A stretch of 32,357 nt of DNA from Bacteroides sp. SM23_62 (GTDB taxonomy: Bacteria > Bacteroidota > Bacteroidia > Bacteroidales > SM23-62), in contig LJUP01000035.1 in assembly GCA_001303955.1 (NCBI GenBank), positions 1 to 32,357 of the forward strand, read 5' to 3'. Below the pieces are notes generated by a model, which was not told the DNA's origin, ran no database searches, and saw nothing but the letters and a program-made list of their open reading frames with translations. Position 1 is the stretch's first letter; each line of letters begins with the position of its first letter. Below are positions 1-31,883 of the stretch, piece by piece. Made by a program: the position numbers and the translations under genes.

Positions 1-244
1 AGAGCCTTATGGCAAAAGTTGTGTCGCCCAGCAGAAACCTGGCAATATTGGCAAACACGGCTATCGATGGCGGTACTGAATGGTACCCCCAGGCCAGGTG
101 GTTTCCCAGGTCAATGTACATGAATGCATCACGCTGCAATTCATAATTGGTATTGGTCAGGAGATGAAGGAGCAATTTGACAACGCTGAAAAGCAGGACC
201 ATCCACCAGGTCCTGATCCATGCGGACGCTGAAAGTCTGTACAT
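1..244 (-). CDS. GT39/PMT-like membrane glycosyltransferase, N-terminal part
   Basis: Translating the minus strand from an ATG at 242-244 gives 81 open codons that run off the left edge. The N-terminus is basic and followed by one hydrophobic segment (about residues 14-28). Then come a charged Q-R-D motif, LGNHLAWGY, a PP dipeptide and LLGDTTFAIRL. This arrangement is typical of family 39 (ArnT/PMT-like) glycosyltransferases, integral membrane enzymes that move a sugar from a polyprenyl-phosphate donor to an acceptor outside the membrane. The usual R-D-E is R-D-A here. The gene lies 46 bp downstream of the M48-like gene on the same strand, so they may be co-transcribed. The catalytic C-terminal part lies outside the window, and the acceptor cannot be inferred. 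Confidence 0.78.
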   Translation of the reverse strand, partial: MYRLSASAWIRTWWMVLLFSVVKLLLHLLTNTNYELQRDAFMYIDLGNHLAWGYHSVPPSIAVFANIARFLLGDTTFAIRL

Positions 245-290: not shown

Positions 291-1622
291 TCAGCGTTTT
301 TGCATAAGCTGGTCACATTTGATAAGCATGCGGTTGGCCCAGGTCAGGTTCCTGCCGGGTGGCATGTTTGACATTTCCGATACAGCTTCTTTGTAGGTGA
401 CAAAGACTTCCCTGGCCTCGGCTACTTCACCCAGCCGGATCAGGATCAGTCCTTTTTCCGCCAGGGCCTCCACAAAATCAAAATCATGCATGGCCAGTGC
501 CGTATTGATAAGACGCAAAGTCTCCGCATTGCTCTGATAAGTGTTTGACAGTGTCCTTGTCAGCTTGGCCCTGAGCAGGTAATCCTCCTCATTGGCTATC
601 CCCAGCCCGAATACCCGGTCCATATACCTCATGGCCTGGTCGTAGTTATGGTGATGATATTCCTGCCAGGCGGTCAACGACAGGGCTGAGGATATGTTGA
701 TCATATATTCTTTGTCCGGAAGAAATTCAAAATCTTCCCGTTGCTGTAATGCATACATGAATGCTTCGCTCAGGTCTTTTGCCCGTTGTTTCTGTTCGCT
801 GCTGAAATCAGCACCGGTAGATTGCACGATGGCATAGGAAATGGCCGCAGCCGAAAGTCCCGTTAATACCAGGTCCGCGGTATGAAAATCCGTACCATAC
901 CTGATATTGCTGAATTCCATGGCAACTGCCGAAGCGATGGTTGCGAAGGCTGTCCAGAACTCTGCGGAGCGCTCGTTGCGGATCTCCATGGTCAGGTTCA
1001 TCAGGTTATGGTCCAGTACCACATGAGCCGTCTGTTCCGACAATATGGTCAATAATTCCTGCTCACTCCTGGTTTTGGCCAGCATCCCTGTAGTGATCAC
1101 AATCGTACCGTTGTCAAAGGTAAAAACCTCAGGTTTGATGGCCGTAATCATCAGGATATTGAGCCGTGATGGTATTTCTTTTATCAGGGCCTTTGGATGG
1201 ACAATCAGCATCAGCTGCCGCAGGTAGTCCTCCAGGTATTCATCCCGGAAAACCAGGCCGTTGATCTCCATCTGGGAGGCATACTCATAGAAGTCGTCCC
1301 TTAAGGTTGACCGGAGATCTGACTGCCATCCTGTGGCATTGATATGGGAAGACTGGTTCTCCAGCCAGACCACCTGCCAGTAATCTAAATCATCATCCAG
1401 TAATGCTAACTTGGCAGAAGAAACATATTTTTCATTGAATCCGGTGCCAATCAGATAAAATGACTTGCCATACGAGTTTTTTTTGAATCCGAAAATATCT
1501 ACCGTATCCCCGGCACTGTACCCGTTGATATTTTTTAATGCGATGCCTTTGTAATTGGACTGCCCGAAGAAACATTGAAGGCTGATAAAAATGATGGTGG
1601 ATGCAGATATTAATGTTCTCAT
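291..1622 (-). CDS. Secreted M48-peptidase-like protein with degenerate zinc site
   Basis: This 443-residue protein starts with a signal peptide (hydrophobic residues 4-20). Residues 165-205 match the M48 metallopeptidase core: a NGTIVITTGMLAK strand-helix is followed by LSEQTAHVVLDH. In active M48 enzymes that stretch is LxHExxHVxxxH. Here the first zinc His is Glu196 and the catalytic Glu is Gln197, and only His200 remains. Further on, SSEQKQRAKDLS (about 274-285) aligns with the usual EADxxG helix, with Arg280 in place of the third zinc-ligand Glu. Residues 305-440 look helical and TPR-like. The family normally degrades or handles envelope proteins in the periplasm. Loss of both zinc ligands and the base suggests a non-catalytic, binding or chaperone-type member. 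That is inference. No clear TAnnTTTG promoter is visible upstream. Confidence 0.8.
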   Translation of the reverse strand: MRTLISASTIIFISLQCFFGQSNYKGIALKNINGYSAGDTVDIFGFKKNSYGKSFYLIGTGFNEKYVSSAKLALLDDDLDYWQVVWLENQSSHINATGWQSDLRSTLRDDFYEYASQMEINGLVFRDEYLEDYLRQLMLIVHPKALIKEIPSRLNILMITAIKPEVFTFDNGTIVITTGMLAKTRSEQELLTILSEQTAHVVLDHNLMNLTMEIRNERSAEFWTAFATIASAVAMEFSNIRYGTDFHTADLVLTGLSAAAISYAIVQSTGADFSSEQKQRAKDLSEAFMYALQQREDFEFLPDKEYMINISSALSLTAWQEYHHHNYDQAMRYMDRVFGLGIANEEDYLLRAKLTRTLSNTYQSNAETLRLINTALAMHDFDFVEALAEKGLILIRLGEVAEAREVFVTYKEAVSEMSNMPPGRNLTWANRMLIKCDQLMQKR

Positions 1623-1794
1623 GAGCGGTTTGCATTAAGGTTGGTTTCGAGTCTTGAATTTACCTGTTAATCTACCTCAAATTTCAAGCCAAAAAAACGC
1701 TAAATATCTGATATGACAGCAAATAAGCGGGAAAGATCCTGGCTTTCACACAGGGCCGTATTTTGCGTATCTTTAAAGGATTGATCAAAGCATT

Positions 1795-4700
1795 TTGTCG
1801 GGACTAACCATATACAAAGCATCGGCAGGATCAGGCAAGACCTTTGCCCTGGCAAAGGACTATATCAGCCTGGTGATCCAGGATCCTGAAATATTCAGGC
1901 ATATACTGGCGGTCACCTTTACCAACAAAGCCACAGATGAGATGAAGAGCCGCATCCTGGAGGAGTTATACCGCCTGGCATCCGGGGTGGATTCCTCCAT
2001 CAGGACTGAAATCATTGAGCAGCAAAAACTGGAAAGCGGGGAAGTCAGTGCCAGGGCAAGGATCATCCTGGAAACCATCCTGCATAATTACGCCCGCTTC
2101 CATATTGAGACCATTGACCGGTTTTTCCAGCGTGCCATACGTTCCTTTACCAGGGAAATAGGGCTGGCTGCAGGGTATGAGCTGGAGCTGGATGCACCCC
2201 GTATATTATCAGAAGCGGTAGACATGATGCTGGATGGCCTCGACCAGGATCCTGAATTGCAGCAATGGTTTGTGGATTTCGCCAGGGACAAGGTGCTGGA
2301 GGGCAAACACTGGAACCTGAAAAATGACCTGCTGGTGCTGGGTGCGGAATTGAACAATGAACGGTTCCAGGAAAACAGTACGGATCTGGTTGCGCAGTTA
2401 TCTGATAAGGACGGCTTCAACAGGTTCCGGTCAGCATTGAATACCATCAGAAGAGGTTTTGAAAAAGGGCTTGATTGCATTGCCAGGGATGCCCTGAAAA
2501 TAATGGAAGAGGAGCAACTGGACGTGAGTGATTTCAAGGGAGCATATGGAGTCGGATGGTTTTTCAGCAGGATCCTGCGAGGAGATTACCGGGTGCCCTC
2601 AAACACCATCAAAAACGCTGTGGATACACCCGAGAATTGGTACGCCAAGGGATCTGAGGCCAGGGACAGCATTTTGACGGTCTATGAAAGGGGCATGAAT
2701 GACCTGCTGAAACAGGCAGTCAATCAGTATGAGCGTGATTTCCGCCGCTACAAAACAGCCGATGCTGTCGGGAGATTCCTGTACACCCTGGGCATACTGA
2801 CGGATATTTCTGCCAGGATGCAGGACTATACTCGGTCACAGGGGATTTTCCTCCTGTCTGATTCCGCCAGGTTTCTTTACGGGATCATTGCAGAGAATGA
2901 AGCACCTTTTATCTATGAGAAGGTGGGCAATTATTTCCTTCATTTTATGATCGATGAGTTCCAGGATACATCCGGACTCCAGTGGAAGAATTTCAAGCCC
3001 CTTATTGACAATAGCCTGGCTTACAACCATAGATGCCTGATTGTGGGTGATGTAAAGCAGTCCATATACCGGTGGAGGAATTCTGACTGGGAGATCCTCA
3101 GTGAAGTGATCCCCCGGGCATTCAATCCCGCTCAAACGGAAGAAAAGGAATTGCAGCATAATTGGAGGAGCCGGCGCAACATCGTTGCCTTTAACAATGA
3201 TTTTTTCACCGCATCCAGAGAGGTACTAAAGGATTTCTTCGGAACGGAAAGTGAGTACGGTGACCGCTATCCGCAGAAAATTGACAGGGCTTATGCGGAT
3301 GTGATCCAGTTGGTGCCTGATCTTCCGGATAAGGAAGGCGGCTGTGTCAGGACAAGCATGATACGGAATGAGAAGGGAGGGGATTGGAAATCCACTGTTC
3401 ACGAAAAGGTAATAGGGCTCGTTGAACAATTGCAGGACAGGGGATTTGGCCTTTCCGATATAGCTATACTCGTCAGGACCAAAAAGGAGGGAAAAGAGAT
3501 CTCGGATGCCATACTCCGGCATAAAAGCCTGCACCCGGGATCGGGGTACAGGTATGACATGATCTCCAATGAATCATTGTTTCTTATCACTTCCTTATCC
3601 GTAAGGATCATTACCGGTGTACTGAAATATCTCACCCGGCCTGGTGACCTGATCAACCTCGCCCAGCTGGTTTATGAGTACCGGCGGTATACTGAGGGTC
3701 ATCTTGCCGAATTTGATTTTTCAGGGACCGGGACCGCTGAACTGCCCAGAGCATTTAAGGATAATATTGACACCCTGCGATACCTGACCCTTACAGCGTT
3801 GATTGAAAGGATAATCCGCCTTTTCTCTTTGCATGACCGTGAGGAGGAAACACCCTATCTCATTGCGTTCCAGGATATCATTCTGGATTACAGCCGGAAT
3901 CATCCGGCGGATATCAATTCATTCCTTTCCTGGTGGGATGTGCATGGAGAGGAATTGGCGCTGACCGTGTCGGAGGACCAGGATGCCATCCGTGTGATGA
4001 CCATTCATAAGGCCAAGGGACTTCAGTTCCCCGTGGTGATCATTCCTTATTGCCACTGGTCCTTTGATCACCGGGGATTGAATACGCAGATCCTCTGGTG
4101 CAAGCCGGAGGAGTCCCCGTTCAACCAGTTAAGCCTCCTGCCGGTGAAATACTCCTCGTCCCTCAGGGATACCTATTTCGAGCAGGAATACCATGCAGAG
4201 CGTTTCCGTGTATATGTCGACCACCTGAACCTGATGTATGTGGCATTTACAAGGGCGATGGAGGGATTATTCATTTTTGCGCCATTGCCCGCCAGGGAGA
4301 AATTGACGGATGCGGCTGACATGCTGCATAATGTGCTCGGAAGCCATACGGATGATCCGCCTGCAGGAGTTCAAATGGAGGACACAGGCCCGACGTGGAC
4401 ATGGGGAGATTTTGACACCATGGGGAGGACAAGAGAAAGGGAAGAGGCAGCACAATTACTGATCCGGAAACTCTGCAGCCATGAATTCAGCAGCAAACTT
4501 CGTCTGCAATACAGGGGAACAAGTTTTTTCGATACCAGGGCTGAACAACGCATTCACCAGGGGAACCTCATGCATGAACTGTTCTCCAGGATCCGGTCAT
4601 CCAGTGATATTGACAAAGCGATTGAGGCCGTCAGGAAGGCGGGGATGATTGAAACAGCTGATGCTGAAAAACTGAGAGGAGAAATAATCGGACTGATCCA

Positions 4701-4971
4701 AAACAATGATGTCAGGGATTGGTTTGATGGAAGCTGGAGGGTAATTGCCGAGCAGGATATACTTACCCCGGGGGGAGCATTAAAACGGCCTGACCGTGTC
4801 ATGCTGAAGGACGATCAGGTAATCGTAGTGGATTACAAGTTCGGTAAAGAGCAATCCGCCGGCCACCGGACCCAGGTCAGGAAATATGTGGATATGCTGA
4901 AACAAATGAATGTTGGAAAGGTGAAGGGATTCATCTGGTATGTGAACCTTGGGGAGGTGATGGAAGTATGA
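1795..4971 (+). CDS. addA: AddA-like UvrD-family helicase/nuclease
   Basis: This 1058-residue superfamily 1 helicase with a C-terminal nuclease is the AddA-type subunit of a double-strand-break resection complex. Visible motifs are Walker A ASAGSGKT (9-16), TFTNKATDEM (motif Ia), DEFQDT (387-392, Walker B), GDVKQSIYRWRN (about 419), NWRSRRN (about 456), TIHKAKGLQFP (about 737) and YVAFTRA (about 814). A PD-(D/E)XK nuclease is marked by Asp1000, Asp1013 and Lys1015 (DYK), with an upstream GNLMHE histidine. The TTG at 1795 is chosen because the SGLTIYKASAGSGKT start follows directly and an in-frame TAA sits at 1774. Its TGA stop overlaps the next ATG. It is shorter than Firmicutes AddA (about 1200 residues), as I recall is usual in Bacteroidota. 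RecB-like is an alternative name, but the AddB-like partner nearby favours AddA. Confidence 0.9.
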   Translation: MSGLTIYKASAGSGKTFALAKDYISLVIQDPEIFRHILAVTFTNKATDEMKSRILEELYRLASGVDSSIRTEIIEQQKLESGEVSARARIILETILHNYARFHIETIDRFFQRAIRSFTREIGLAAGYELELDAPRILSEAVDMMLDGLDQDPELQQWFVDFARDKVLEGKHWNLKNDLLVLGAELNNERFQENSTDLVAQLSDKDGFNRFRSALNTIRRGFEKGLDCIARDALKIMEEEQLDVSDFKGAYGVGWFFSRILRGDYRVPSNTIKNAVDTPENWYAKGSEARDSILTVYERGMNDLLKQAVNQYERDFRRYKTADAVGRFLYTLGILTDISARMQDYTRSQGIFLLSDSARFLYGIIAENEAPFIYEKVGNYFLHFMIDEFQDTSGLQWKNFKPLIDNSLAYNHRCLIVGDVKQSIYRWRNSDWEILSEVIPRAFNPAQTEEKELQHNWRSRRNIVAFNNDFFTASREVLKDFFGTESEYGDRYPQKIDRAYADVIQLVPDLPDKEGGCVRTSMIRNEKGGDWKSTVHEKVIGLVEQLQDRGFGLSDIAILVRTKKEGKEISDAILRHKSLHPGSGYRYDMISNESLFLITSLSVRIITGVLKYLTRPGDLINLAQLVYEYRRYTEGHLAEFDFSGTGTAELPRAFKDNIDTLRYLTLTALIERIIRLFSLHDREEETPYLIAFQDIILDYSRNHPADINSFLSWWDVHGEELALTVSEDQDAIRVMTIHKAKGLQFPVVIIPYCHWSFDHRGLNTQILWCKPEESPFNQLSLLPVKYSSSLRDTYFEQEYHAERFRVYVDHLNLMYVAFTRAMEGLFIFAPLPAREKLTDAADMLHNVLGSHTDDPPAGVQMEDTGPTWTWGDFDTMGRTREREEAAQLLIRKLCSHEFSSKLRLQYRGTSFFDTRAEQRIHQGNLMHELFSRIRSSSDIDKAIEAVRKAGMIETADAEKLRGEIIGLIQNNDVRDWFDGSWRVIAEQDILTPGGALKRPDRVMLKDDQVIVVDYKFGKEQSAGHRTQVRKYVDMLKQMNVGKVKGFIWYVNLGEVMEV

Positions 4972-5924
4972 CTCCGGCAGGCAGGACATATAGCTGGGGA
5001 CACCAGAGACGCTTCAACAGCTATCCCGAATATTTCAAAAAGAAATTCGGCGGACGGGTTCAGAAACTCTCCCTCGATGCCGGGTTTACCTGCCCTAACA
5101 GGGATGGGAGCAAGGGCAAGGGTGGTTGTACATTCTGTAACAATAATGCCTTCAATCCGGCTTACTGCCAGCCGGAAAAATCCATCTCGGTCCAGATCGA
5201 TGAAGGCATTGAGTTTCATAAAAAACGGTACCGGCGAACCGATAAATACCTGGCCTATTTCCAGGCCTATTCCAATACCTATGCTGAAATTGAGGTATTG
5301 AGGGAAAGGTACGAGGAGGCCCTCGGGCGGGATGAGGTGATCGGACTGGTCCTTGGTACCCGGCCTGATACCGTAGATGCTGAGATACTTGATTATATAA
5401 AGTCATTGACGAAGGACCATTATGTGGTTATTGAATATGGCATTGAATCCTGCTATAACAGTACCCTGGAACGGGTGAACAGGGGACATTCCTTCGAGGA
5501 TTCCCTGCGGGCCATTGAGATGACCGCATCAAGGGGGATCAGGCAGGGAGCCCATTTCATTATCGGCCTCCCGGGTGAATCGGTTGGTGAGATCCTGGCC
5601 GGGATAAGGACCATATCAAGATTGCCCATCAATAATATTAAATTCCACCAGTTGCAGATCGTCAGGAATACCATGATGGCAAGGCAGTACAGGATGGATC
5701 CGGAAGCGTTCAGGATTTTTGAGCTGGAAGAATACCTTGAGCTGATGCTAATGATCCTGGAACTGCTCAATCCGGAATTTGTCGTCGAAAGGATTGCTGG
5801 GGAATCGAATCCGGGATATTTGTTGAGTCCCTCCTGGGGACTCAGATATGACCAGGTACTGAATAAGTTTGAACAGATGCTTGCTTCGGAAGATACCTGG
5901 CAGGGAAAGCGTTTTAGCCCATGA
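4968..5924 (+). CDS. Radical SAM protein, YhcC/TIGR01212 type
   Basis: This 318-residue radical SAM protein carries the cluster cysteines in the spacing C42-x11-C54-x2-C57, within TCPNRDG...GGCTFC. That is the variant of the YhcC-like family (TIGR01212), not the classic CxxxCxxC. Further family marks are GTRPDTVD, the EYGIES segment, HFIIGLPGE (glycine-rich SAM-binding region) and NNIKFHQLQIV. The chemistry and substrate of this family were not known to me. The gene is inserted between the AddA-like and AddB-like genes: its ATG overlaps the addA stop (ATGA) and its own stop overlaps the next ATG in the same way. Translation of the three is therefore probably coupled. Whether it serves the repair complex or is a passenger cannot be told from sequence. 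Confidence 0.9.
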   Translation: MTPAGRTYSWGHQRRFNSYPEYFKKKFGGRVQKLSLDAGFTCPNRDGSKGKGGCTFCNNNAFNPAYCQPEKSISVQIDEGIEFHKKRYRRTDKYLAYFQAYSNTYAEIEVLRERYEEALGRDEVIGLVLGTRPDTVDAEILDYIKSLTKDHYVVIEYGIESCYNSTLERVNRGHSFEDSLRAIEMTASRGIRQGAHFIIGLPGESVGEILAGIRTISRLPINNIKFHQLQIVRNTMMARQYRMDPEAFRIFELEEYLELMLMILELLNPEFVVERIAGESNPGYLLSPSWGLRYDQVLNKFEQMLASEDTWQGKRFSP

Positions 5925-8785
5925 AACCATTTTTAAAGGAAATTGCAGAAGAATTATTCACATTGTATGGTGAAAGGATGGAGGAGCTGTGCCTGGTCTT
6001 TCCGAACCGCAGGGCAGGTTTGTTTTTCAATAAATACCTCGGGGGATGTCTCACAGGACCCGTCTGGTCTCCTTCCATATATACCATACAGGACCTGATG
6101 GCAGGCATTTCCGATCTGGCTTATGCGGATGAACTGGAACTGATCAGTGAATTGTTCAGGGTCTATACCGGGGTCCGGGGCAGGGAGGAGAGCTTTGATG
6201 ATTTCTATTACTGGGGAGAGGTGATGCTTGCTGATTTCGATGATGTTGACAAGTATATGGTCAGGGCCGCTGATCTGTTCCGCAACCTGGCCGACCTGAA
6301 GCAGATGGAGGATGGCTTCCAGTACCTTTCGGAACAGCAAATAGAGCTGATTCAGCGGTTCTGGGGACATTTTTCAACTGATCGGCAGAGTGAACAGAAG
6401 AAACAATTCATTGAAGTATGGAATATTCTCCATCCGGTCTATGACCGGCTGAGAGAAAATCTGCTTGGGAAGGGGACAGGTTATGAAGGGATGATTTACC
6501 GGAATGTCGCCGAAAGGATAAAGGAAGGGGAAACCCTCAACCTGCCCGCATCAATCATCGTGTTTATCGGTTTCAATGCCTTGAATCCATGTGAGGAAGT
6601 CCTGTTCAGATCCCTTGCCGACGCTGGAAAAGCAATGTTTTACTGGGATTTTGATAATTACTACCTGGAGAATGAGATGCATGAAGCTGGCCGGTTTATC
6701 AGGAAGAACCTCGATAAATACAAAGACTCAGGGCACCGGATCAGCCATGATAATATGCTGAAGTCCGGTAAGCAGATAGAGGTATATTCCATGCCGGGCG
6801 GTAGCGGACAGGCACAGCTGATACATCGCATTCTTGGGCAGGCCCGGCAATCAAAAGCACCAGGGGAAGAAACGGCCATCATCCTGGCGGATGAGGAATT
6901 ACTCATCCCTGTCCTGCATGCCCTGCCTGAAAACCTGGAGGAGATCAATGTAACCATGGGATTTCCGGTGAAAGCAGCCCCTGTTTTCAGCCTGATCGAA
7001 CATCTTATTGCACTGCAACGAAATATCAGGGAATGGAAAAATGATACCATCAGGTTTTATTATGCGGATGTACTGGCTGTATTGCAGCATCAATACATCC
7101 TGACGTGCGAGCCCGCAGATGTAAGGGTGATCGTAAAGGAGATCCATGAAAAAAACAGGATCTATCTCAGTACCGGGGACCTGAAAAAGAATGATCTGTT
7201 TATCCATGTCTTCAAAAAACTCGGGAACCCTGAAGATATCGCGGATTATCTGATGAGCATCCTGGAATACATAACCCGTTCGGATGATGGGGAAAGTAAT
7301 GCGGTACCTGCCCTTGAACTGGAATTCATCTACAGGGTATATACCAGGATCAAACGCCTGAAAGATGTGATCAGCCGCCTGGACCTTAGTTTCACCCTGC
7401 CTACATTTCTGCGACTGTTCCATAAGATCCTCCAGCGGACAAGCATACCTTTCTCAGGTGAACCGCTTTCGGGGATACAGGTAATGGGTGTCCTGGAGAC
7501 CCGTGTCCTGGATTTTGACAGGATCATCCTCCTCTCCATGAATGAAGGCGCTTTCCCAAAGACCAGTACCAGTGCAAGTTTTATCCCCCATAACCTGAGA
7601 TTCGGATTTAATCTCCCAACCCTTGAATACCAGGATGCCATCTATGCTTATTATTTTTACAGGCTGATTCACAGGGCACAGGAAATATCCCTGGTCTATA
7701 ATAATCAAAACGAGGGATTGAATACCGGAGAGAAATCGAGATATATCCATCAACTCCGGTATGAACCGGCATTTGAGGTCCGGGAATATTCCGCCGGTTT
7801 TGATCTGCAGTCCGGGCAGATCCCTCCGATTCATGTCAGAAAGACCGGACCGATCATGGATGAACTACTGAATTATGCTGCCGCTGTCGAAAATGGACAT
7901 TATTTTTCGCCCAGTGCACTGAATAGCTTGATTGATTGTACTTTGCGCTTTTATTTCAGGTATATTGCCGGACTCAAAGAGCCGGATGAGTTAAAGGAAG
8001 AGGTTGACCCGGCCTTGTTCGGAACCCTTTTACATGAAAGTATCAGGAAGATCTACGGGGGACTGGAAAATCCTATCCAAAAGGCAGATATTGAATCTGT
8101 CGTTAAGGATGCCAAAGGGGTAAGAAAGGCCATCAATGAAGCCTTTGCAGAGGTATGGTATAAAAATAGGACAGGCGTTGAACCGGAAGGCAGGAACCTT
8201 GTCATCAGGGAAATCATCTTCACCTACCTCCAGAAGATCATGGAAAGGGACCAGGAATACTGCCCGATCAATATATACAGCCTTGAAAAACCTTATTTTA
8301 CTGGACTGGCATTCGAATCATCCGGGCAAAACCATACGGTTAAAATAGGGGGCAAGATAGACAGGATAGATGAATCCGGCGGGATGTACCGGGTGCTTGA
8401 TTATAAGACCGGTGCCGGTGAAATGACCTTCGAATCCATACAGGATCTCTTTGAAGGGGAACAGAAGAACAGGAACAGGGCAGCTTTCCAGACATTCCTG
8501 TATGCAAAGGTGTTTGCGTCCCACATCGGCATGAAGGAGGCTAAAATAATGCCGGGCATTTACCTGATCAGGGATATTTATAGCCAGGATTTCAATTACA
8601 TATTCCGGATGGGGCCCCCGAGAAAACATATCCCCATAGAGGATTACTCAAATTTTGATGAGGTTTTTACAGAGCATTTGCGGGCCTTGCTCTCAGCCCT
8701 TTACGACCCGGAAGTACCCTTTCAGCAGACAGCCGAGGAAGAAAATTGCAGGAACTGTCCATACAGGGGAATATGTCACAGATAA
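5921..8785 (+). CDS. addB: AddB-like PD-(D/E)XK nuclease subunit
   Basis: This 954-residue protein pairs with the AddA-like helicase. The N-terminus reads LVFPNRRAGLFFNKYL. I see no Walker A motif there, so the helicase-like half is probably a non-ATPase scaffold. The C-terminal nuclease has Asp814, Asp827 and Lys829 (LDYKTG). It also has four cysteines in the AddB/Cas4-type iron-sulfur layout: C673 in front of the nuclease, then C943-x2-C946-x5-C952 at the very end. LFGTLLHESIRKIY supplies the motif-I histidine. The partner role is to cut one strand and recognise the end during recombinational repair. The ATG at 5921 overlaps the preceding TGA. The gene ends 28 bp before the convergent trmD stop, and I see no hairpin in that gap. 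Confidence 0.88.
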   Translation: MKPFLKEIAEELFTLYGERMEELCLVFPNRRAGLFFNKYLGGCLTGPVWSPSIYTIQDLMAGISDLAYADELELISELFRVYTGVRGREESFDDFYYWGEVMLADFDDVDKYMVRAADLFRNLADLKQMEDGFQYLSEQQIELIQRFWGHFSTDRQSEQKKQFIEVWNILHPVYDRLRENLLGKGTGYEGMIYRNVAERIKEGETLNLPASIIVFIGFNALNPCEEVLFRSLADAGKAMFYWDFDNYYLENEMHEAGRFIRKNLDKYKDSGHRISHDNMLKSGKQIEVYSMPGGSGQAQLIHRILGQARQSKAPGEETAIILADEELLIPVLHALPENLEEINVTMGFPVKAAPVFSLIEHLIALQRNIREWKNDTIRFYYADVLAVLQHQYILTCEPADVRVIVKEIHEKNRIYLSTGDLKKNDLFIHVFKKLGNPEDIADYLMSILEYITRSDDGESNAVPALELEFIYRVYTRIKRLKDVISRLDLSFTLPTFLRLFHKILQRTSIPFSGEPLSGIQVMGVLETRVLDFDRIILLSMNEGAFPKTSTSASFIPHNLRFGFNLPTLEYQDAIYAYYFYRLIHRAQEISLVYNNQNEGLNTGEKSRYIHQLRYEPAFEVREYSAGFDLQSGQIPPIHVRKTGPIMDELLNYAAAVENGHYFSPSALNSLIDCTLRFYFRYIAGLKEPDELKEEVDPALFGTLLHESIRKIYGGLENPIQKADIESVVKDAKGVRKAINEAFAEVWYKNRTGVEPEGRNLVIREIIFTYLQKIMERDQEYCPINIYSLEKPYFTGLAFESSGQNHTVKIGGKIDRIDESGGMYRVLDYKTGAGEMTFESIQDLFEGEQKNRNRAAFQTFLYAKVFASHIGMKEAKIMPGIYLIRDIYSQDFNYIFRMGPPRKHIPIEDYSNFDEVFTEHLRALLSALYDPEVPFQQTAEEENCRNCPYRGICHR

Positions 8786-23945: not shown

Positions 23946-23998
23946 CGATTTTCAGGCAATCATGCCAGGGATGTTATTTAACTATCCGTTGAAACCAG

Positions 23999-24006
23999 TA
24001 ATTTTG
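23999..24006 (+). promoter_or_regulatory. -7 box for the hydro-lyase cluster
   Basis: TAATTTTG matches TAnnTTTG exactly and lies 24 bp before the ATG at 24031. It argues against the upstream in-frame ATG at 23962, which would precede the transcript start. Confidence 0.45.
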
Positions 24007-24030
24007 TTCAGAACAGGAAAAAATCAAGAC

Positions 24031-25482
24031 ATGGGCAGGACCATCATTGAAAAAATCATTGCCAATCATGGCAGGGCAAAGGCAGTAACACCCGGAGACA
24101 TCCTTGATGTTGGAATTGATGCAAGGGTAGCGCGGGATTTTGGAGGTGCCAATGTGGTGAAGCATATACGGGATCATGACCTGGGGATTGATGACCCCGG
24201 GAAGACCTTTTTTACGTTTGACTGTAATCCTACAGGCTCTGACCAGAAGTATACGGCCAACCAGCAGATCTGCAGGGTGTTTGCACGAGAAAACGGAATA
24301 AAGGTATATGATATCAACCGGGGGATCGGTACACATCTGATGATTGAAGAAGGATTGGTCTATCCGGGTGCTACAGCCGTCTCAACAGACTCACATGCCA
24401 ACATACTTGGCGCCATCGGTGCCTTTGGACAGGGAATGGGGGACAAAGATATCGCCGCTGCCTGGAGCAGCGGGAAGATCTGGTTCAAGGTGCCGGAATC
24501 CGTCAAGCTGACAATCAATGGGAAAATCCCCGAAAAGTTAAGTGCCAAGGATATCATACTTTGCCTTCTCGCCCGTTTTGGAGCGAACACGTTTCTGGGG
24601 AAATCCATTGAACTATGCGGGAAAGAGATTGAAAGCCTCTCTCTTGACAAGCGGATCACCATTGCCTCGATGGCAACCGAAATGGGCGCCGTTACCATTT
24701 TGATCCCTCCAAACCAGGAAGTGATCCGGTACTGTGAGTCCAGGATCTGCCGGAGGATCGAACCGGTCCTTGCGGATCATGATGCAGCCTATGCGGAGAA
24801 GATTGAAATAGAGGCTGGTGAATTCACCCAGATGGTTTCCCGTCCGGGGAAACCACATGATGCCATACCACTGGATGAGGTAAGGGGTACCCCGATCGAT
24901 TCCGTCTTCATCGGCAGTTGCACAAACGGCAGGATAGAGGATATGCGGGCCGCCGCCGCAGTGCTGGAAGATCATAAAGTGGCTGACGGGGTGGTGCTGA
25001 AAATAGTTCCCTGCACCGACAGGGTCTGGAACATGTGCCTTGAGGAAGGGCTGATTGAGATATTCAAGGATGCCAGGGCCTTGGTATCCAATCCGGGTTG
25101 TGCAGGATGTGCTGCCGGCCAGGTTGGACAGAACGGACCGGGTGAGGTTTCCATCAGTTCAGGGAACCGGAACTTCCCGGGGAAGCAGGGCATGGGAGAT
25201 GTTTACCTGGCTTCCCCTGAGGTTGCCGCAGCCAGTGCAGTATCAGGCTTTATCACTTCTCCTGACCAGATCTCTGTAGCTCCCATGGAACGGGTGCCCT
25301 TACCCTCACAGGAATCCTTGCCATCACTGATATCAACGAAATGGGAGAACATGCTTTCGGGAACCTTGAGGGTTTTGAATCATTCGCCGGCCAGGCAAGG
25401 GAAGGCGACATTATTTTTACCGGTAAGAACTTCGGGGCGGGAAGTTCGAGGCAACAGGCTGTGGATTGCTTCAAATCTCTAG
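24031..25482 (+). CDS. Aconitase/LeuC-type hydro-lyase 1, large-subunit frame
   Basis: This is the large-subunit domain of an isopropylmalate dehydratase/homoaconitase-type [4Fe-4S] hydro-lyase. From the ATG at 24031 it reads MGRTIIEKIIANHG. It has VSTDSHANILGAIGAFGQGMG, and the cluster cysteines are Cys297 in GSCTNGR, Cys357 and Cys360 in GCAGC. The 60- and 3-residue spacing is the same as in LeuC. Family likeness ends at about residue 415 (GFITSPDQI, about 25275). The remaining roughly 70 residues to the stop at 25482 look like an out-of-frame reading of the small-subunit domain, which is open in the frame one base back (25266-25721). The gene is therefore a LeuC-LeuD fusion with a frame break, or it carries a deletion at the domain junction. 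The neighbouring paralog is an intact fusion. The substrate is unknown. Confidence 0.85.
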   Translation: MGRTIIEKIIANHGRAKAVTPGDILDVGIDARVARDFGGANVVKHIRDHDLGIDDPGKTFFTFDCNPTGSDQKYTANQQICRVFARENGIKVYDINRGIGTHLMIEEGLVYPGATAVSTDSHANILGAIGAFGQGMGDKDIAAAWSSGKIWFKVPESVKLTINGKIPEKLSAKDIILCLLARFGANTFLGKSIELCGKEIESLSLDKRITIASMATEMGAVTILIPPNQEVIRYCESRICRRIEPVLADHDAAYAEKIEIEAGEFTQMVSRPGKPHDAIPLDEVRGTPIDSVFIGSCTNGRIEDMRAAAAVLEDHKVADGVVLKIVPCTDRVWNMCLEEGLIEIFKDARALVSNPGCAGCAAGQVGQNGPGEVSISSGNRNFPGKQGMGDVYLASPEVAAASAVSGFITSPDQISVAPMERVPLPSQESLPSLISTKWENMLSGTLRVLNHSPARQGKATLFLPVRTSGREVRGNRLWIASNL

Positions 25483-25721
25483 GGGTAAGCTGTATTGTTG
25501 CGGCATCCTTTGGATCTATCTATGAGCGAAATGCCATCAATGCCGCTTTTCCGATCCTGATTTCAGACGAGCTGGATAAACTTGAGCTAAAAACGGGTGA
25601 TCAGGTATCTGTCAATGCAGGCAATGGAAAAATTATTAATTTGCGCAACCAGAAACGCATACAGGCCAATCCGTTTTCAGAAGTACAGATGGAGATATAT
25701 CAAAATGGTGGATTATTCTGA
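25341..25721 (+). pseudogene. LeuD-type small (swivel) domain belonging to hydro-lyase 1, displaced frame
   Basis: This frame encodes the small domain: GDIIFTGKNFGAGSSRQQA with the substrate-binding SSR, CFKSLGVSCIVAASFGSIYERNAIN, then FPILISDELDKLEL. It ends 2 bp before the next gene. Family-like sequence already begins upstream at AITDINEMGEH (about 25320), but this frame has a TGA at 25263 and no ATG, GTG or TTG before 25341. It therefore cannot start a complete small subunit on its own. The N-terminal swivel strand with the conserved N-T-D motif (present in the second copy as NLNTDQMF) is not found in either frame. One deletion of 3n+1 bases at about 25280-25320 in a fused gene would explain both the missing motif and the shift. 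An assembly or sequencing error would explain the shift alone. Confidence 0.72.
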
Positions 25722-25723
25722 TC

Positions 25724-27499
25724 ATGGGAAAGACTTTTGTAGAAAAGATATTTGATGCAACGTGCGGGAGCATTGTTTTCCGGAAACCGGACATTGTACT
25801 GTCACATGATAATACTGCCAGTATCCGGAAGACCTTTGAAAAAATGAATGGAAAGAATGTGGCTGATCCCGATCAGCTGCTGATCGTCCTTGATCACAAC
25901 GCCCCGCCTACCAGTGCCAAACTCGCCACAGATTATCAGGGGATGCGGGAGTTTGTCAATGCCGAGGGCATCAACAGGTTCTATGATGCAGGCAGGGGGA
26001 TTTGCCACCAGCTCATGGCGGGTCATGCCATGCCAGGCATGATCATTGTCGGGAGCGACAGCCATACCTGTACAGCAGGTGCTTTCAATGCCATGGCAAC
26101 GGGGATTGACCGTACGGAGACAGCCGGTATATGGAAACAGGGGGAAACCTGGTTCAGGGTCCCTGAATCCATGAAGATCAACCTGTCAGGACAACTGCGC
26201 GATGGTGTCTATGCCAAAGACCTGTCATTATGGATCATCGGGCTGATCGGTTCATCCGGTGCCAATTACAAATCCATCGAATATCACGGGGATGGTGTCA
26301 GGAACCTGGGCATATCAGAACGTATGACCCTTGCCAATTTGGCCTCAGAAATGGGAGCCAAAAATGCCGTCTTTCCCCCGGACGAAGTCCTGAGGGCATT
26401 TTATGGCAAAGGTAAGCTCAAAGGATTTTGGGCTGATCCCGATGCCAGCTATGTGGAAGAAATCAGCGTTGACCTGTCTGAAGTGGTACCGCTTGTTGCC
26501 GCTCCACATCATGTGGATCATATCAAGACGGTGGCAGAGGTAAGGGGGACCAGGGTTCAGCAGGGATTAATAGGCACCTGCACCAATGGCCGCATAGAAG
26601 ATCTGCGGGAGGCTGCAGCCGTCCTTGAAGGCCGCATGGTGGCGGATGGGTTCCAGCTGCTTGTTGTACCCGCATCCAGGGATATCTATATGCATGCGAT
26701 TGAAGAGGGACTGATCACCACTTTCCTGGAAGCGGGGGCCAATGTGCTCAGTGCTTCCTGCGGTCCTTGTCTGGGAACAGGGCAGGGTATTCCGGCCGAT
26801 GGCTTTACAGTCATATCCACTGCCAACCGTAATTTTAAAGGGCGAATGGGGAACCGGGAAGCGGAGATCTACCTGGCTTCACCGGCAACTGTTGCTGCCA
26901 GTGCCATAACAGGAGAAATCACCGCCCGGATTGCTTATGAGCAGAAGATAAAAAAATTCAGGCCGGATCAGAAAGAGGGCATTAGTGAAATAAGCGTGGG
27001 GGATTCTAGAATGATAAACGGGGTCTGGAACTATGCGGACGTGGATAACCTGAATACGGACCAGATGTTTGCCGGTAACCTGACCTATAGCGTATCCAGC
27101 GCCGATCCGGGAGCTATCCTTCCGCATTTGTTTGCAGGATTTGATCCTGCCTTTGCAGCAACGGTCAGGGAGGGGGATGTCATCATGGCAGGTGAGAACT
27201 TCGGGTGCGGCAGTTCCCGTGAACATCCGGCAGTTGGACTGGTGCATGCCGGTGTCAGGGCCGTGATCGTAAAATCAGTGAACAGGATTTTTTTCAGGTC
27301 GAGTGTGAACCAGGGGCTGATACTTATCGTACAACCGGAAGTGGTTGAGGGTTACAGGTCCGGCGACAAGGTGTCCGTCAGCCTGGAATCAGGCAGAATA
27401 ACACTGAATGACAGGGTTTTCCAGTATTCACCCCTGCCCGGGAAATTGCTGGATATTATCAGGAAAAAGGGCCTGGTCAACTGGATAAGGGAGTCATAA
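25724..27499 (+). CDS. Fused LeuC-LeuD-type hydro-lyase 2 (aconitase family)
   Basis: This 591-residue protein contains both halves of an isopropylmalate dehydratase-type enzyme in one chain. The large domain (1 to about 400) has VGSDSHTCTAGAFNAMATGI and cluster cysteines Cys286 (GTCTNGR), Cys346 and Cys349 (SCGPC). A linker of about 35 residues leads to the small swivel domain (about 425-590) with NLNTDQMF, GENFGCGSSREHP and RIFFRSSVNQGL. All visible catalytic and cluster motifs are intact. Such enzymes dehydrate and rehydrate 2- or 3-hydroxy di- or tricarboxylates. The exact substrate is not readable from sequence. It starts 2 bp after the first hydro-lyase and 10 bp before the reductase gene, so all are one operon. 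No leuA or leuB is in the window, so simple leucine synthesis is not supported here. Confidence 0.9.
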   Translation: MGKTFVEKIFDATCGSIVFRKPDIVLSHDNTASIRKTFEKMNGKNVADPDQLLIVLDHNAPPTSAKLATDYQGMREFVNAEGINRFYDAGRGICHQLMAGHAMPGMIIVGSDSHTCTAGAFNAMATGIDRTETAGIWKQGETWFRVPESMKINLSGQLRDGVYAKDLSLWIIGLIGSSGANYKSIEYHGDGVRNLGISERMTLANLASEMGAKNAVFPPDEVLRAFYGKGKLKGFWADPDASYVEEISVDLSEVVPLVAAPHHVDHIKTVAEVRGTRVQQGLIGTCTNGRIEDLREAAAVLEGRMVADGFQLLVVPASRDIYMHAIEEGLITTFLEAGANVLSASCGPCLGTGQGIPADGFTVISTANRNFKGRMGNREAEIYLASPATVAASAITGEITARIAYEQKIKKFRPDQKEGISEISVGDSRMINGVWNYADVDNLNTDQMFAGNLTYSVSSADPGAILPHLFAGFDPAFAATVREGDVIMAGENFGCGSSREHPAVGLVHAGVRAVIVKSVNRIFFRSSVNQGLILIVQPEVVEGYRSGDKVSVSLESGRITLNDRVFQYSPLPGKLLDIIRKKGLVNWIRES

Positions 27500-29074: not shown

Positions 29075-30205
29075 ATGAAAGCAGGATTTCAATACCTGGT
29101 GAATCCGCTGATAGGATGCAAGCCGGATGTACTGAAGGAAATCGAGAATCGCTTTTCCGTGGACCCGGAATACCGGGTTAAATACAGCCGGTCTAAAATA
29201 CTTAGCCGGGTCCTGCATGAACTGGCCCGGTTCGACCTGATCCGTTACCGGACAATACGGCACCGTGCATCCCTGGCTGTCCCACCTGTATTTATTATCG
29301 GGCATTGGCGAAGCGGAACCTCCTTTCTTCATAATCTTTTATGCCGGGCTTATCCGGCCGCTTACACAACCACATACCATGCCGCTTTCCCAAACAACCT
29401 CTTTGCATTCAAGGGTCTGGTAAAGTTCTTTATGTGGGTGTTCATGCCGCGAATGCGTCCCACTGATGCAATGAAGATGCATCCTGACCTTCCACAGGAG
29501 GAAGAACTAGCCCTAGGTCAGGAACGGTTCTTTAGTTTCTACTACTGGTTTTATTTTCCAAGACAGGCGAAAAACCTTGCCGATGAATTCATGTACCTGG
29601 ATGACCCGCAAAGCATGAGGTCAAAAAAATTCCAGCAGCACTACATGGAATACATCCGCAGATGCCAGTTAAACACCCGTGGAGAAGTTTTCATCTCAAA
29701 GAATCCGGCCAACACGGCAAGGATAGCAGTCCTTATAGATCGGTTCCCGGATGCCCGTTTCATATACCTTAAAAGGGATCCTTACGAGACCCTGCAGTCA
29801 TCTATGATTTTCTTCAAGTCCCTTCTGAAGGGAATCTCCTTGCAGGATTACGAAGAGCGGGAGGTGGACCGCTTCATTCTCGGGAATTATAAACGGATGA
29901 TCGGTGCTTACCTCGAGAAAAAAAACCTTATCCCCTCAGACCAATTGATCGAGCTCAGCTACGAGGAGCTAACAAAGCATCCTGCGCAAGTCATACCAGC
30001 CGTAACAGAACGACTCGATCTCGGCGTGAAGGCCAACCTGTCAGAGGTGCAGGATTACATGGCTGCCAGCAGGGACTTCCCATCGCGAAAATACAGGTTC
30101 AGCAACAATTTCATCAAGGAGGTAAATAACACACTGGAAGATCTGATTGAGCGGCAGGGATACCGGGTTCGCAATACTCATTTAGGGGAACAGATGAAAA
30201 CATGA
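29075..30205 (+). CDS. PAPS-type sulfotransferase family protein
   Basis: This 376-residue protein transfers a sulfuryl group from PAPS to an unknown acceptor. The 5'-phosphosulfate loop is IIGHWRSGTSFLHNLL (about 74-89). The 3'-phosphate-binding region is ISKNPANTARI followed by RFPDARFIYLKRDPYETLQSS, where most relatives have K-S-P-A. No signal peptide or clear transmembrane segment is seen, though residues 121-133 are hydrophobic. It looks like the Sulfotransfer_3 type used for lipids, glycans or small molecules. The ATGA overlap with the next gene indicates coupled translation. The pAp by-product would need a phosphatase, and an NrnA-like DHH enzyme is encoded at 18568. Confidence 0.88.
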   Translation: MKAGFQYLVNPLIGCKPDVLKEIENRFSVDPEYRVKYSRSKILSRVLHELARFDLIRYRTIRHRASLAVPPVFIIGHWRSGTSFLHNLLCRAYPAAYTTTYHAAFPNNLFAFKGLVKFFMWVFMPRMRPTDAMKMHPDLPQEEELALGQERFFSFYYWFYFPRQAKNLADEFMYLDDPQSMRSKKFQQHYMEYIRRCQLNTRGEVFISKNPANTARIAVLIDRFPDARFIYLKRDPYETLQSSMIFFKSLLKGISLQDYEEREVDRFILGNYKRMIGAYLEKKNLIPSDQLIELSYEELTKHPAQVIPAVTERLDLGVKANLSEVQDYMAASRDFPSRKYRFSNNFIKEVNNTLEDLIERQGYRVRNTHLGEQMKT

Positions 30206-30798
30206 AGGTTTTAATTGTCCTGGCCCATCCGGATCAAAACAGTTTCAATCATGCCATTGCTGATACCTGCCTGAAAAGGCTGTCAGATAATGGTTATGAT
30301 ATTATCTTCCATGATCTGTACCAGGAAAAATTTGATCCATTACTGGATAAAAACGAAATTCCCAAGGATGGGAAGGTTGATGACATGATAGAATGGTATT
30401 GTGCTGAACTGGCAGATTGTGATGGGATTATCATCGTTCATCCGAATTGGTGGGGACAGCCTCCCGCTATTTTAAAAGGTTGGATCGACAGGGTCTTCAG
30501 ACCGGGTATTGCCTATGAATTTGAAGATGGAGACCTGGGAGAAGGGATTCCTGTGGGATTACTCAGGGCTGAAACAGCACTGGTTTTCAATACATCCAAC
30601 ACCAGCGCTGACAGAGAGTACACGGTATTTAAAGATCCCCTTGAGTTGATCTGGAATAATTGCATCTTTGATTTATGTGGTGTAAGGAGATTTGAGAGAA
30701 GAATGTTCAGGATCATTGTAACCAGTGATGCAGATCAGAGGAAGGCATGGCTGGATGAAGTTACAGGATTGATTGATAAGCACTTTCCCCGACAATAA
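30202..30798 (+). CDS. Flavodoxin-fold NAD(P)H:quinone oxidoreductase
   Basis: This 198-residue protein of the flavodoxin_2 (MdaB/KefF/NQO-like) family begins MKVLIVLAHPDQNSFNHAIA. It has HPNWWGQPPAILKGWIDRVF, the usual FMN/FAD-site segment with the W-x-x-P-A-x-L-K-G pattern, and a GLLRAETALVFNTSNT strand. It would reduce quinones or other electrophiles with NAD(P)H in the cytoplasm. Its ATG overlaps the sulfotransferase TGA (ATGA), so the two are coupled. A joint function, such as reducing the acceptor before or after sulfation, is speculation. Confidence 0.9.
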   Translation: MKVLIVLAHPDQNSFNHAIADTCLKRLSDNGYDIIFHDLYQEKFDPLLDKNEIPKDGKVDDMIEWYCAELADCDGIIIVHPNWWGQPPAILKGWIDRVFRPGIAYEFEDGDLGEGIPVGLLRAETALVFNTSNTSADREYTVFKDPLELIWNNCIFDLCGVRRFERRMFRIIVTSDADQRKAWLDEVTGLIDKHFPRQ

Positions 30799-30867
30799 AT
30801 GAAGCGTGTAAAACTGGCATATAAGCAGATTTTGCTATTTGAAAAGCCTGGCAAAAACCGGTGTTTA

Positions 30868-30898
30868 TTGTGAAGCAATAATAATATTACTATCATTG
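30868..30898 (+). promoter_or_regulatory. Possible promoter for the GH43-like gene
   Basis: TTG (30868-30870), 20 bases, then TATCATTG (30891-30898, one mismatch to TAnnTTTG), 7 bases before the ATG at 30906. It lies in the 107-bp gap after the oxidoreductase gene. Confidence 0.3.
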
Positions 30899-30905
30899 TA
30901 TTACT

Positions 30906-31883
30906 ATGCTATATCGCAGCCAGCTTGTCATTGCAATACTGATCCTGATGGTCGGATGCAGCGGGAGATCGAAGGAAAAAACGAATGCCAGTCAAGAAGG
31001 TGTGCTGACCTATACCAATCCGATCATCGATAAGTACCTCGCAGATCCTTGTATGATGTATGATAATGGGTTCTATTATCTATTCGCAACCGGCAAGGCA
31101 GATGATGGACGGTTTATTCCCATACATCGGACCACAGATTTTGTACACTGGGAATTTATCCGTGGAGCCGTGGAGAGAGGCAGTGAAAGGGATTGGAATT
31201 ACAAACATTTTTGGGCCCCTGAAGTGATCAAACTAAATGGTAAATGGCACTTGTATTACACTGCCTCACCCAGCCACTCTCCCCGTAACTCCGGTAACCG
31301 GGTCGGACTGGCCGTTGCGGATGATATTGCAGGTCCCTATCAGGATTTTGGCGTGATCATACCTCATGCGTCTATTGATGGACATGTTTTTGTGGATGAA
31401 GATGGCACGATGTACATATTCTATACCATTGAACATCTTAATGAGGATGGTTTAAGGGCAGGTCATATATATCAGGATCTCATGCTTTCTCCCACTGAGG
31501 TTGCCGGAAAGCCAAAACTGATGATCAGTCATCACCCCTGGCAGGAAGGACCCTTTTTACAACACCGGCACAATCAATATTTCCTGACATACAGCTGCGG
31601 TGCATGGACAGATCACACGTATCATATACGGTATGCCATTGGTCCCTCTGTAACAGGACCATTTATTGAACAACCTGATACTATCCTGGCTAGCAACGAA
31701 ATGGTAAAGGGTCCGGGACACCACTTTATGTATTCGGATAAAAAAGGGAAAGACTGGATCATTTATCACGGATGGGATACTGCTTTCACAGCCAGGTACC
31801 CAAGGATCGACCGGATTTTCTTCGATGAAAATTCCATATCTTCAGATGGCCCGACATATACCGAGCAAAGGGTGGATAAATAA
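30906..31883 (+). CDS. GH43-like glycosidase lipoprotein
   Basis: This 325-residue lipoprotein (lipobox MVGC, Cys18) has the five-bladed propeller pattern of glycoside hydrolase family 43. Putative catalytic residues are all present: Asp47 in YLADPCMMYDNGFYYLF (base), Asp158 in SIDGHVFVDEDGTMY (pKa modulator) and Glu214 in WQEGPFLQHRHNQYFLTYS (acid). HFWAPEVIKLNGKWHLYYTA is the typical second blade. Relatives act mainly on arabinose- or xylose-containing glycans. The substrate here is unknown. No SusC/SusD pair is in view, so it is not obviously part of a polysaccharide utilisation locus. The penicillin-acylase-like gene starts 11 bp downstream, probably in one operon. Confidence 0.88.
   Translation: MLYRSQLVIAILILMVGCSGRSKEKTNASQEGVLTYTNPIIDKYLADPCMMYDNGFYYLFATGKADDGRFIPIHRTTDFVHWEFIRGAVERGSERDWNYKHFWAPEVIKLNGKWHLYYTASPSHSPRNSGNRVGLAVADDIAGPYQDFGVIIPHASIDGHVFVDEDGTMYIFYTIEHLNEDGLRAGHIYQDLMLSPTEVAGKPKLMISHHPWQEGPFLQHRHNQYFLTYSCGAWTDHTYHIRYAIGPSVTGPFIEQPDTILASNEMVKGPGHHFMYSDKKGKDWIIYHGWDTAFTARYPRIDRIFFDENSISSDGPTYTEQRVDK

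Follow-up and report, generated by a model that had tools for sequence, protein, structure and literature searches.

The M48 protein BepA (YfgC) assists as well as degrades outer-membrane proteins. Its zinc ligands are H136, H140 and E201, together with H246 on an active-site plug that has the motif HPx4R (PMC7950410), and this H246 switch in the plug represses the proteolysis (PMC8423444). The edge strand of the E. coli protein, at about N105-F107, contacts LptD and is required for degradation and for the chaperone-like function alike (PMC8423444). The protease-dead E. coli variant E137Q is dominant negative and restores LptD maturation weakly (PMC7950410, PMC8423444), which implies that an inactive site alone is not enough for a good chaperone. 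A BepA-like protease of the Bacteroidales, BVU_0371, is induced upon attack on BamA (PMC8546649). Pseudoenzymes that have lost their metal ligands, retained the fold and taken on binding roles are described for other metallopeptidase families (PMC11266112), and a term search of the available text of that 2024 review found neither M48 nor BepA. In the literature searched, M48 was combined with pseudoproteases in protozoan degradome surveys and plant transcriptome work, and an M48 pseudopeptidase of such a kind was not found in the literature searched, where most subscription journals lay outside the scope.

The window, by which we mean the whole stretch of 32,357 nucleotides from Bacteroides sp. 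SM23_62 (contig LJUP01000035.1) that was analysed, encodes a protein that an earlier note had assigned to the M48 type from the letters of the DNA (Table 1). This assignment holds. Peptidase_M48 (PF01435) covers residues 158-254 with an E-value of 3.9e-7 and 30.5 bits, above the curated cut-off of 20.3, and the M48 fold is also predicted by AlphaFold2, with a mean pLDDT of 82.4 compared to 83.4 for the intact relative L048. Residues 218-249 of the window model are of low confidence. The small N-terminal domain has its modelled strands at residues 24-28, 40-48, 54-58, 65-68 and 72-74. Taken together, a signal peptide, a small beta domain, an M48 fold and TPR helices would make up the architecture of a secreted, presumably periplasmic protein.

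Table 1. Features of the zinc-less M48/TPR protein and of the adjoining gene; positions are those of the window.
Feature	Position	Strand	Basis or remark
Zinc-less M48/TPR protein (pseudopeptidase)	291..1622	-	443 aa; AlphaFold2 mean pLDDT 82.4
Probable signal peptide, residues 1-21, end ..FFGQ	1560..1622	-	by eye; modelled helix 2-16
N-terminal small beta domain, residues 22-76	1395..1559	-	SH3-like by eye; from modelled strands
Edge strand beside the ex-active site, residues 164-175, PEVFTFDNGTIV	1098..1133	-	alignment with BepA N105-A106-F107
Ex-HExxH, now EQTAH, residues 196-200	1023..1037	-	sequence and alignment
Ex-third zinc ligand, now K278 (= BepA E201)	789..791	-	alignment
Ex-EAD, now RAK, residues 280-282	777..785	-	sequence and alignment
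Shortened stretch, residues 283-305, site of the HPx4R plug in intact relatives	708..776	-	spacing
C-terminal TPR-like helices, residues 303-415	378..716	-	model helices, TPR_2 match, TPR structure matches
Start of PMT_2/GT39 membrane glycosyltransferase, clipped by the window edge	1..244	-	downstream; outside the system by conservation

The order of an M48 domain followed by a TPR domain is that of BepA according to the model, Foldseek and the profile comparison, with TPR matches in Pfam that stay under the cut-off (TPR_2, E 7.7e-4). In Foldseek the top match was BepA (6ait) for the window model (E 2.1e-7) as well as for L048 (E 3.4e-7), and a profile of the family covered both the M48 and the TPR part of E. 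coli BepA (E 1.1e-10) and matched the M48 peptidase 3c37 with an E-value of 1.6e-16. With VIA-align the window model had a Z of 12.9 to 3c37 over 175 residues, and of 13.1 to 6ait (173 residues, 3.6 A), a value level with those of many unrelated TPR chains and no outlier among them. For the L048 model 6ait ranked first, with a Z of 17.1 (224 residues, 3.6 A). With regard to the N-terminal beta domain, the structural comparison is dominated by the M48/TPR part. The likeness to BepA includes the predicted fold, the C-terminal TPRs, the position of the edge strand, the two-domain profile match and the best Foldseek match, but the window protein is without the counterparts of ligands H136 and E201, the general base and the H246 plug, and has the N-terminal beta domain in addition. 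The score against the NCBIfam BepA equivalog NF052400 was 17.4 bits and did not reach the cut-off of 570. LoiP, YcaL, HtpX and the 3c37-type peptidases also have an M48 domain, and the LoiP and HtpX models match part of 34 aligned family rows, but they are zinc proteases; HtpX and the 3c37-type peptidases do not have this architecture of N-terminal domain and TPRs, and LoiP and YcaL are not known to have it.

At the place of HExxH the protein reads EQTAH, as the earlier note had it, and a scan of the complete 443-aa ORF found no HE..H anywhere in it. It had also been claimed that two of the three zinc ligands and the general base are gone. The count is right, but the third ligand had been placed at RAK, on R280. 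In the numbering of the BepA sequence, E201 is the Glu that precedes the Asp of ExEAD by four positions, and its counterpart in the alignment is K278, which means that the residue marked was a neighbouring non-ligand. The fourth ligand had been overlooked; the counterpart of H246 in the HPx4R plug is missing as well, and about 40 residues are deleted there, leaving 23 residues between EAD and Tyr in the window protein as compared to 58-94 in the intact rows. An active peptidase of this type would have HExxH, the third-ligand Glu and the plug, and all three are absent here. Orthologues from the same genus have EQTSH, EQTAH, VQTAH and KHTAH at this position, and a relative in the same family has EHIAH. 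A sequencing error behind EQTAH is therefore ruled out, since the close homologues are degenerate too instead of all having HExxH. As a control, HExxH was found in 39 of 40 other M48-like ORFs from the same searches, and the exception, L026, belongs to this same protein family.

A protein-only search of 60 genomes gave nine matches, six of them across nearly the full length: the window's own genome, four other species in its genus and one relative in its family. The named relatives are assemblies from metagenomes that carry the label Bacteroides sp. (isolates CSMAG, HyVt-375 and SM23_62_1). With the family profile, 21 of 393 genomes of the order were matched at E <= 1e-15, and 15 were counted as holding family members, the intact ones included. 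A class sample of 395 genomes gave 102 matches at E <= 1e-10, nearly all from other M48 subfamilies and seven from this family, and a phylum sample of 395 genomes gave five at 1e-20; these draws overlap. In the family of G746, 3 of 13 genomes were positive, and in that of G693, 12 of 148. From these counts the BepA-like family, with zinc-less and intact members, is real and its distribution is patchy. Weak M48 matches from other subfamilies were left out of the counts, and so were two contig-end fragments without the HExxH stretch (L025 in G130 and L052 in G733) and L024 in G083. The latter is a relative of the intact type with the canonical motifs (AHEMAH, ExEAD and THP) and an in-frame TAA upstream of HExxH.

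The main alignment holds 34 sequences, nine intact and 25 without a complete zinc site. The intact Bacteroidota members (L019, L020, L021, L022, L023, L048, L079, L080 and L081) share the M48 core and the TPR-like C-terminus, except that the frame of L020 stops ahead of the latter, and the six nearer rows share the N-terminal domain. All nine have HPx4R together with HExxH and the third-ligand Glu, whereas the plug His-Pro is aligned in none of the 25 incomplete rows, and in 23 of these the EAD-to-Tyr stretch is 20-25 residues. A stray HP without a following R stood in the plug columns of the clade rows L050 and L051 in a first alignment, and is no longer in these columns in the 34-sequence alignment. 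The 23 rows in which both zinc site and plug are missing, the window protein among them, span five family-level groups (f1, f62, f64, f121 and f134) and form one clade, with 95/97 support (ultrafast bootstrap/SH-aLRT) in a 34-sequence tree from which the catalytic and plug columns had been left out. By another alignment method, and with the three longest branches removed, 22 clade rows were grouped at 98/95, and 11 clade rows of an earlier 22-row set at 99/98.

The earlier note had proposed to look for conservation of the replacements in a clade. The loss of the site is common to the clade, the first His of HExxH being gone in 23/23 rows, but the replacing residues drift, with seven residue types at position 196 and 12 at position 278. 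The second His is retained in 16 of the 23, the general-base Glu in two and the third-ligand Glu in two. The general-base Glu is also kept by L049, and by these retained residues the order of loss inside the clade is not uniform. In the tree L049 (SEISH, NRP) and L026 (NSLYR) are placed among the intact relatives. A single origin for all 25 degenerate rows was rejected (p-AU 0.0096; L026 is a long branch), so that these two are extra losses of both site and plug. Judged from the tree, zinc site and plug motif have been lost jointly three times in this sample, the long branch of L026 being one of the three.

L049 (G677, 1501-3000) is in an intermediate state, with SEISH, a changed third ligand (QIFEAD) and RP in place of the HP of the plug; the plug segment is retained at full length and the motif alone is changed. 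At the other end are L054 (G594), L051 (G746) and L123 (G1115), where the ex-active-site region itself is eroded. These three have lost much of the M48 core that lies between the ex-HExxH and the EAD helix and retain the TPR part; the edge strand is poor in L054 and L123.

Omega was 0.080-0.090 in three close pairs within the genus (dS 0.94-1.25) and lowest, 0.035-0.053, in the C-terminal part of the same pairs, and two pairs from another family gave 0.084 and 0.041. More distant pairs, with high or saturated dS, were not used, and a third pair of the other family was saturated. Several positions are near-fixed in the clade (W86 in 23/23, D132 in 22/23, K148 in 20/23 and W319 in 19/23), where the intact rows mostly have other residues. 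In the edge strand, of which residues 165-167 align with BepA 105-107, F169 is kept in 21, D170 in 19, N171 in 19 and G172 in 22 of the 23 rows, and most of them follow the consensus F-x-F-D-N-G. The N-terminal domain has G38 in 21/22, D39 in 22/22 and T40 in 21/22. The mean identity of the former EAD helix is 0.26 in the clade compared to 0.38 in the intact rows, and that of the TPR region 0.38 compared to 0.28; both comparisons are rough, as the groups differ in depth. A loss of catalytic residues that is common to a clade under purifying selection is what is expected of a pseudopeptidase, and the aligned sequences demonstrate the loss of catalytic and metal residues, the deletion of the plug, their conservation throughout the clade and the purifying selection.

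The protein had also been linked, in the earlier note, to the adjacent membrane glycosyltransferase. This partnership is rejected on synteny. A PMT_2/GT39 gene is next in 3 of 23 loci only, those of the window (an edge fragment), G001 and G002. G003 and G006 have a gene for an Ig-domain protein as the next sizeable one on that strand, in G004 and G331 the locus stops at the contig edge, and a neighbour of the PMT_2/GT39 type is not common to the remaining clade loci. Clustering of the neighbours in the clade loci gave no partner gene conserved across the whole clade, and none of the conserved neighbours was recognised as a BAM, Lpt or chaperone gene, most neighbour clusters being unannotated. 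A trio of AddA-like, radical SAM and AddB-like genes lies upstream, in divergent orientation, in five of the six gene-holding genomes of the window's family (G000, G002, G003, G004 and G006, the last with one intervening gene), which reads as neighbours and not as partners, and other neighbour clusters are common to near relatives alone.

In the window this AddAB-like cluster of UvrD-helicase/PDDEXK, radical SAM and PDDEXK proteins is found at 1795-8785 (+), and its UvrD-helicase ORF has a TTG start. Further along, an aconitase-family ORF at 23962-25482 (+) overlaps the ORF 25341-25721, which is in a different frame and has the aconitase C-terminal domain. The pair, 23962-25721 (+), is a split or frameshifted gene, and it is directly followed by a complete second aconitase-family gene at 25724-27499. 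At 29075-31883 (+) a sulfotransferase-family gene is followed by genes for a flavodoxin-like protein and a GH43 glycoside hydrolase.

On balance we favour a secreted, BepA-like M48 non-peptidase that has lost the protease centre and the plug and would serve as a chaperone or adaptor, with outer-membrane or envelope proteins as its most likely clients. A Bacteroidota ancestor would have lost the zinc site together with the HPx4R plug; once the zinc centre is lost the plug has nothing to restrain, which fits the joint loss. The edge strand and the TPR helices are largely retained, and extended polypeptide segments may be held at the edge strand and the TPR surface. The chaperone or adaptor role would then be the mode of BepA in which it promotes and does not degrade, made permanent. 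The pseudopeptidase that binds rather than cuts, as suggested in the earlier note, stands as far as the pseudopeptidase is concerned, given the clade-wide loss, the selection and the BepA-like fold with TPRs, and the non-catalysis of the clade proteins is well supported by their sequences. The binding is something we infer, and the window protein itself would be inactive, bind polypeptides and reside in the periplasm, where its client may be an outer-membrane protein. The client is the weak step of what is a reasoned proposal, and no result here connects the zinc-less clade with BAM.

It is also conceivable, though less probable, that the protein is a pseudopeptidase scaffold or regulator, working through the N-terminal beta domain and the TPRs on a client outside outer-membrane protein assembly, for instance in a glycan, cell-wall or stress pathway. 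The conservation of G38, D39 and T40 in the clade would agree with this, and so would the lack, among the conserved neighbours, of a genomic partner that points to BAM or Lpt. BepA is nevertheless the closest architecture, and the edge strand is retained in most of the clade. That the protein regulates an active M48 protease of its own cell, as an inhibitor or a decoy, seems improbable to us. Two further canonical M48 proteins are encoded in the window's genome, on C363 and C68, but they belong to other subfamilies, and a second family member was seen in none of the genomes that hold a plug-less member at the thresholds used, only weak matches to other M48 proteins (E 1e-4 to 3e-5; 5.8e-6). 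This search, made in incomplete draft genomes with only some of the candidates scored, thus gives no indication of an active paralogue as a partner.

Still less probable is a metalloenzyme whose metal site has shifted or been built anew, for instance on H200, H205 and other side chains. H205 is present in 20/23 clade rows and 9/9 intact rows and H200 in 16/23, but H200 has become Asn or Leu in the other seven, positions 196 and 278 are variable, and no three candidates among His, Glu, Asp and Cys at the site are retained through the clade. The patchy presence (about 15 positive genomes among the 393 of the order, counting intact members too) could suggest a gene that is decaying and will be lost, which we consider very improbable: the frame is open in 23/23 members, with L017 and L051 clipped by a contig end, omega is 0.04-0.09 and clade-specific residues are near-invariant. 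The pseudogene reading is ruled out by the omega values and the open frames.

Returning to the chaperone or adaptor for envelope proteins, it is possible, and put forward here tentatively, that the two jobs of BepA have been split by nature, and that the clade is a dedicated protease-free chaperone for stalled outer-membrane protein intermediates. If this is true, nature would provide evidence, in the repeated loss of the plug motif along with the zinc site, that the only task of the plug is to restrain the protease. The clade would also offer a natural set of proteins without the protease and the switch, with the binding parts kept, in which the chaperone half is testable alone. For the zinc-less clade proteins, the Pfam-based label "M48 family metalloprotease" would be misleading.
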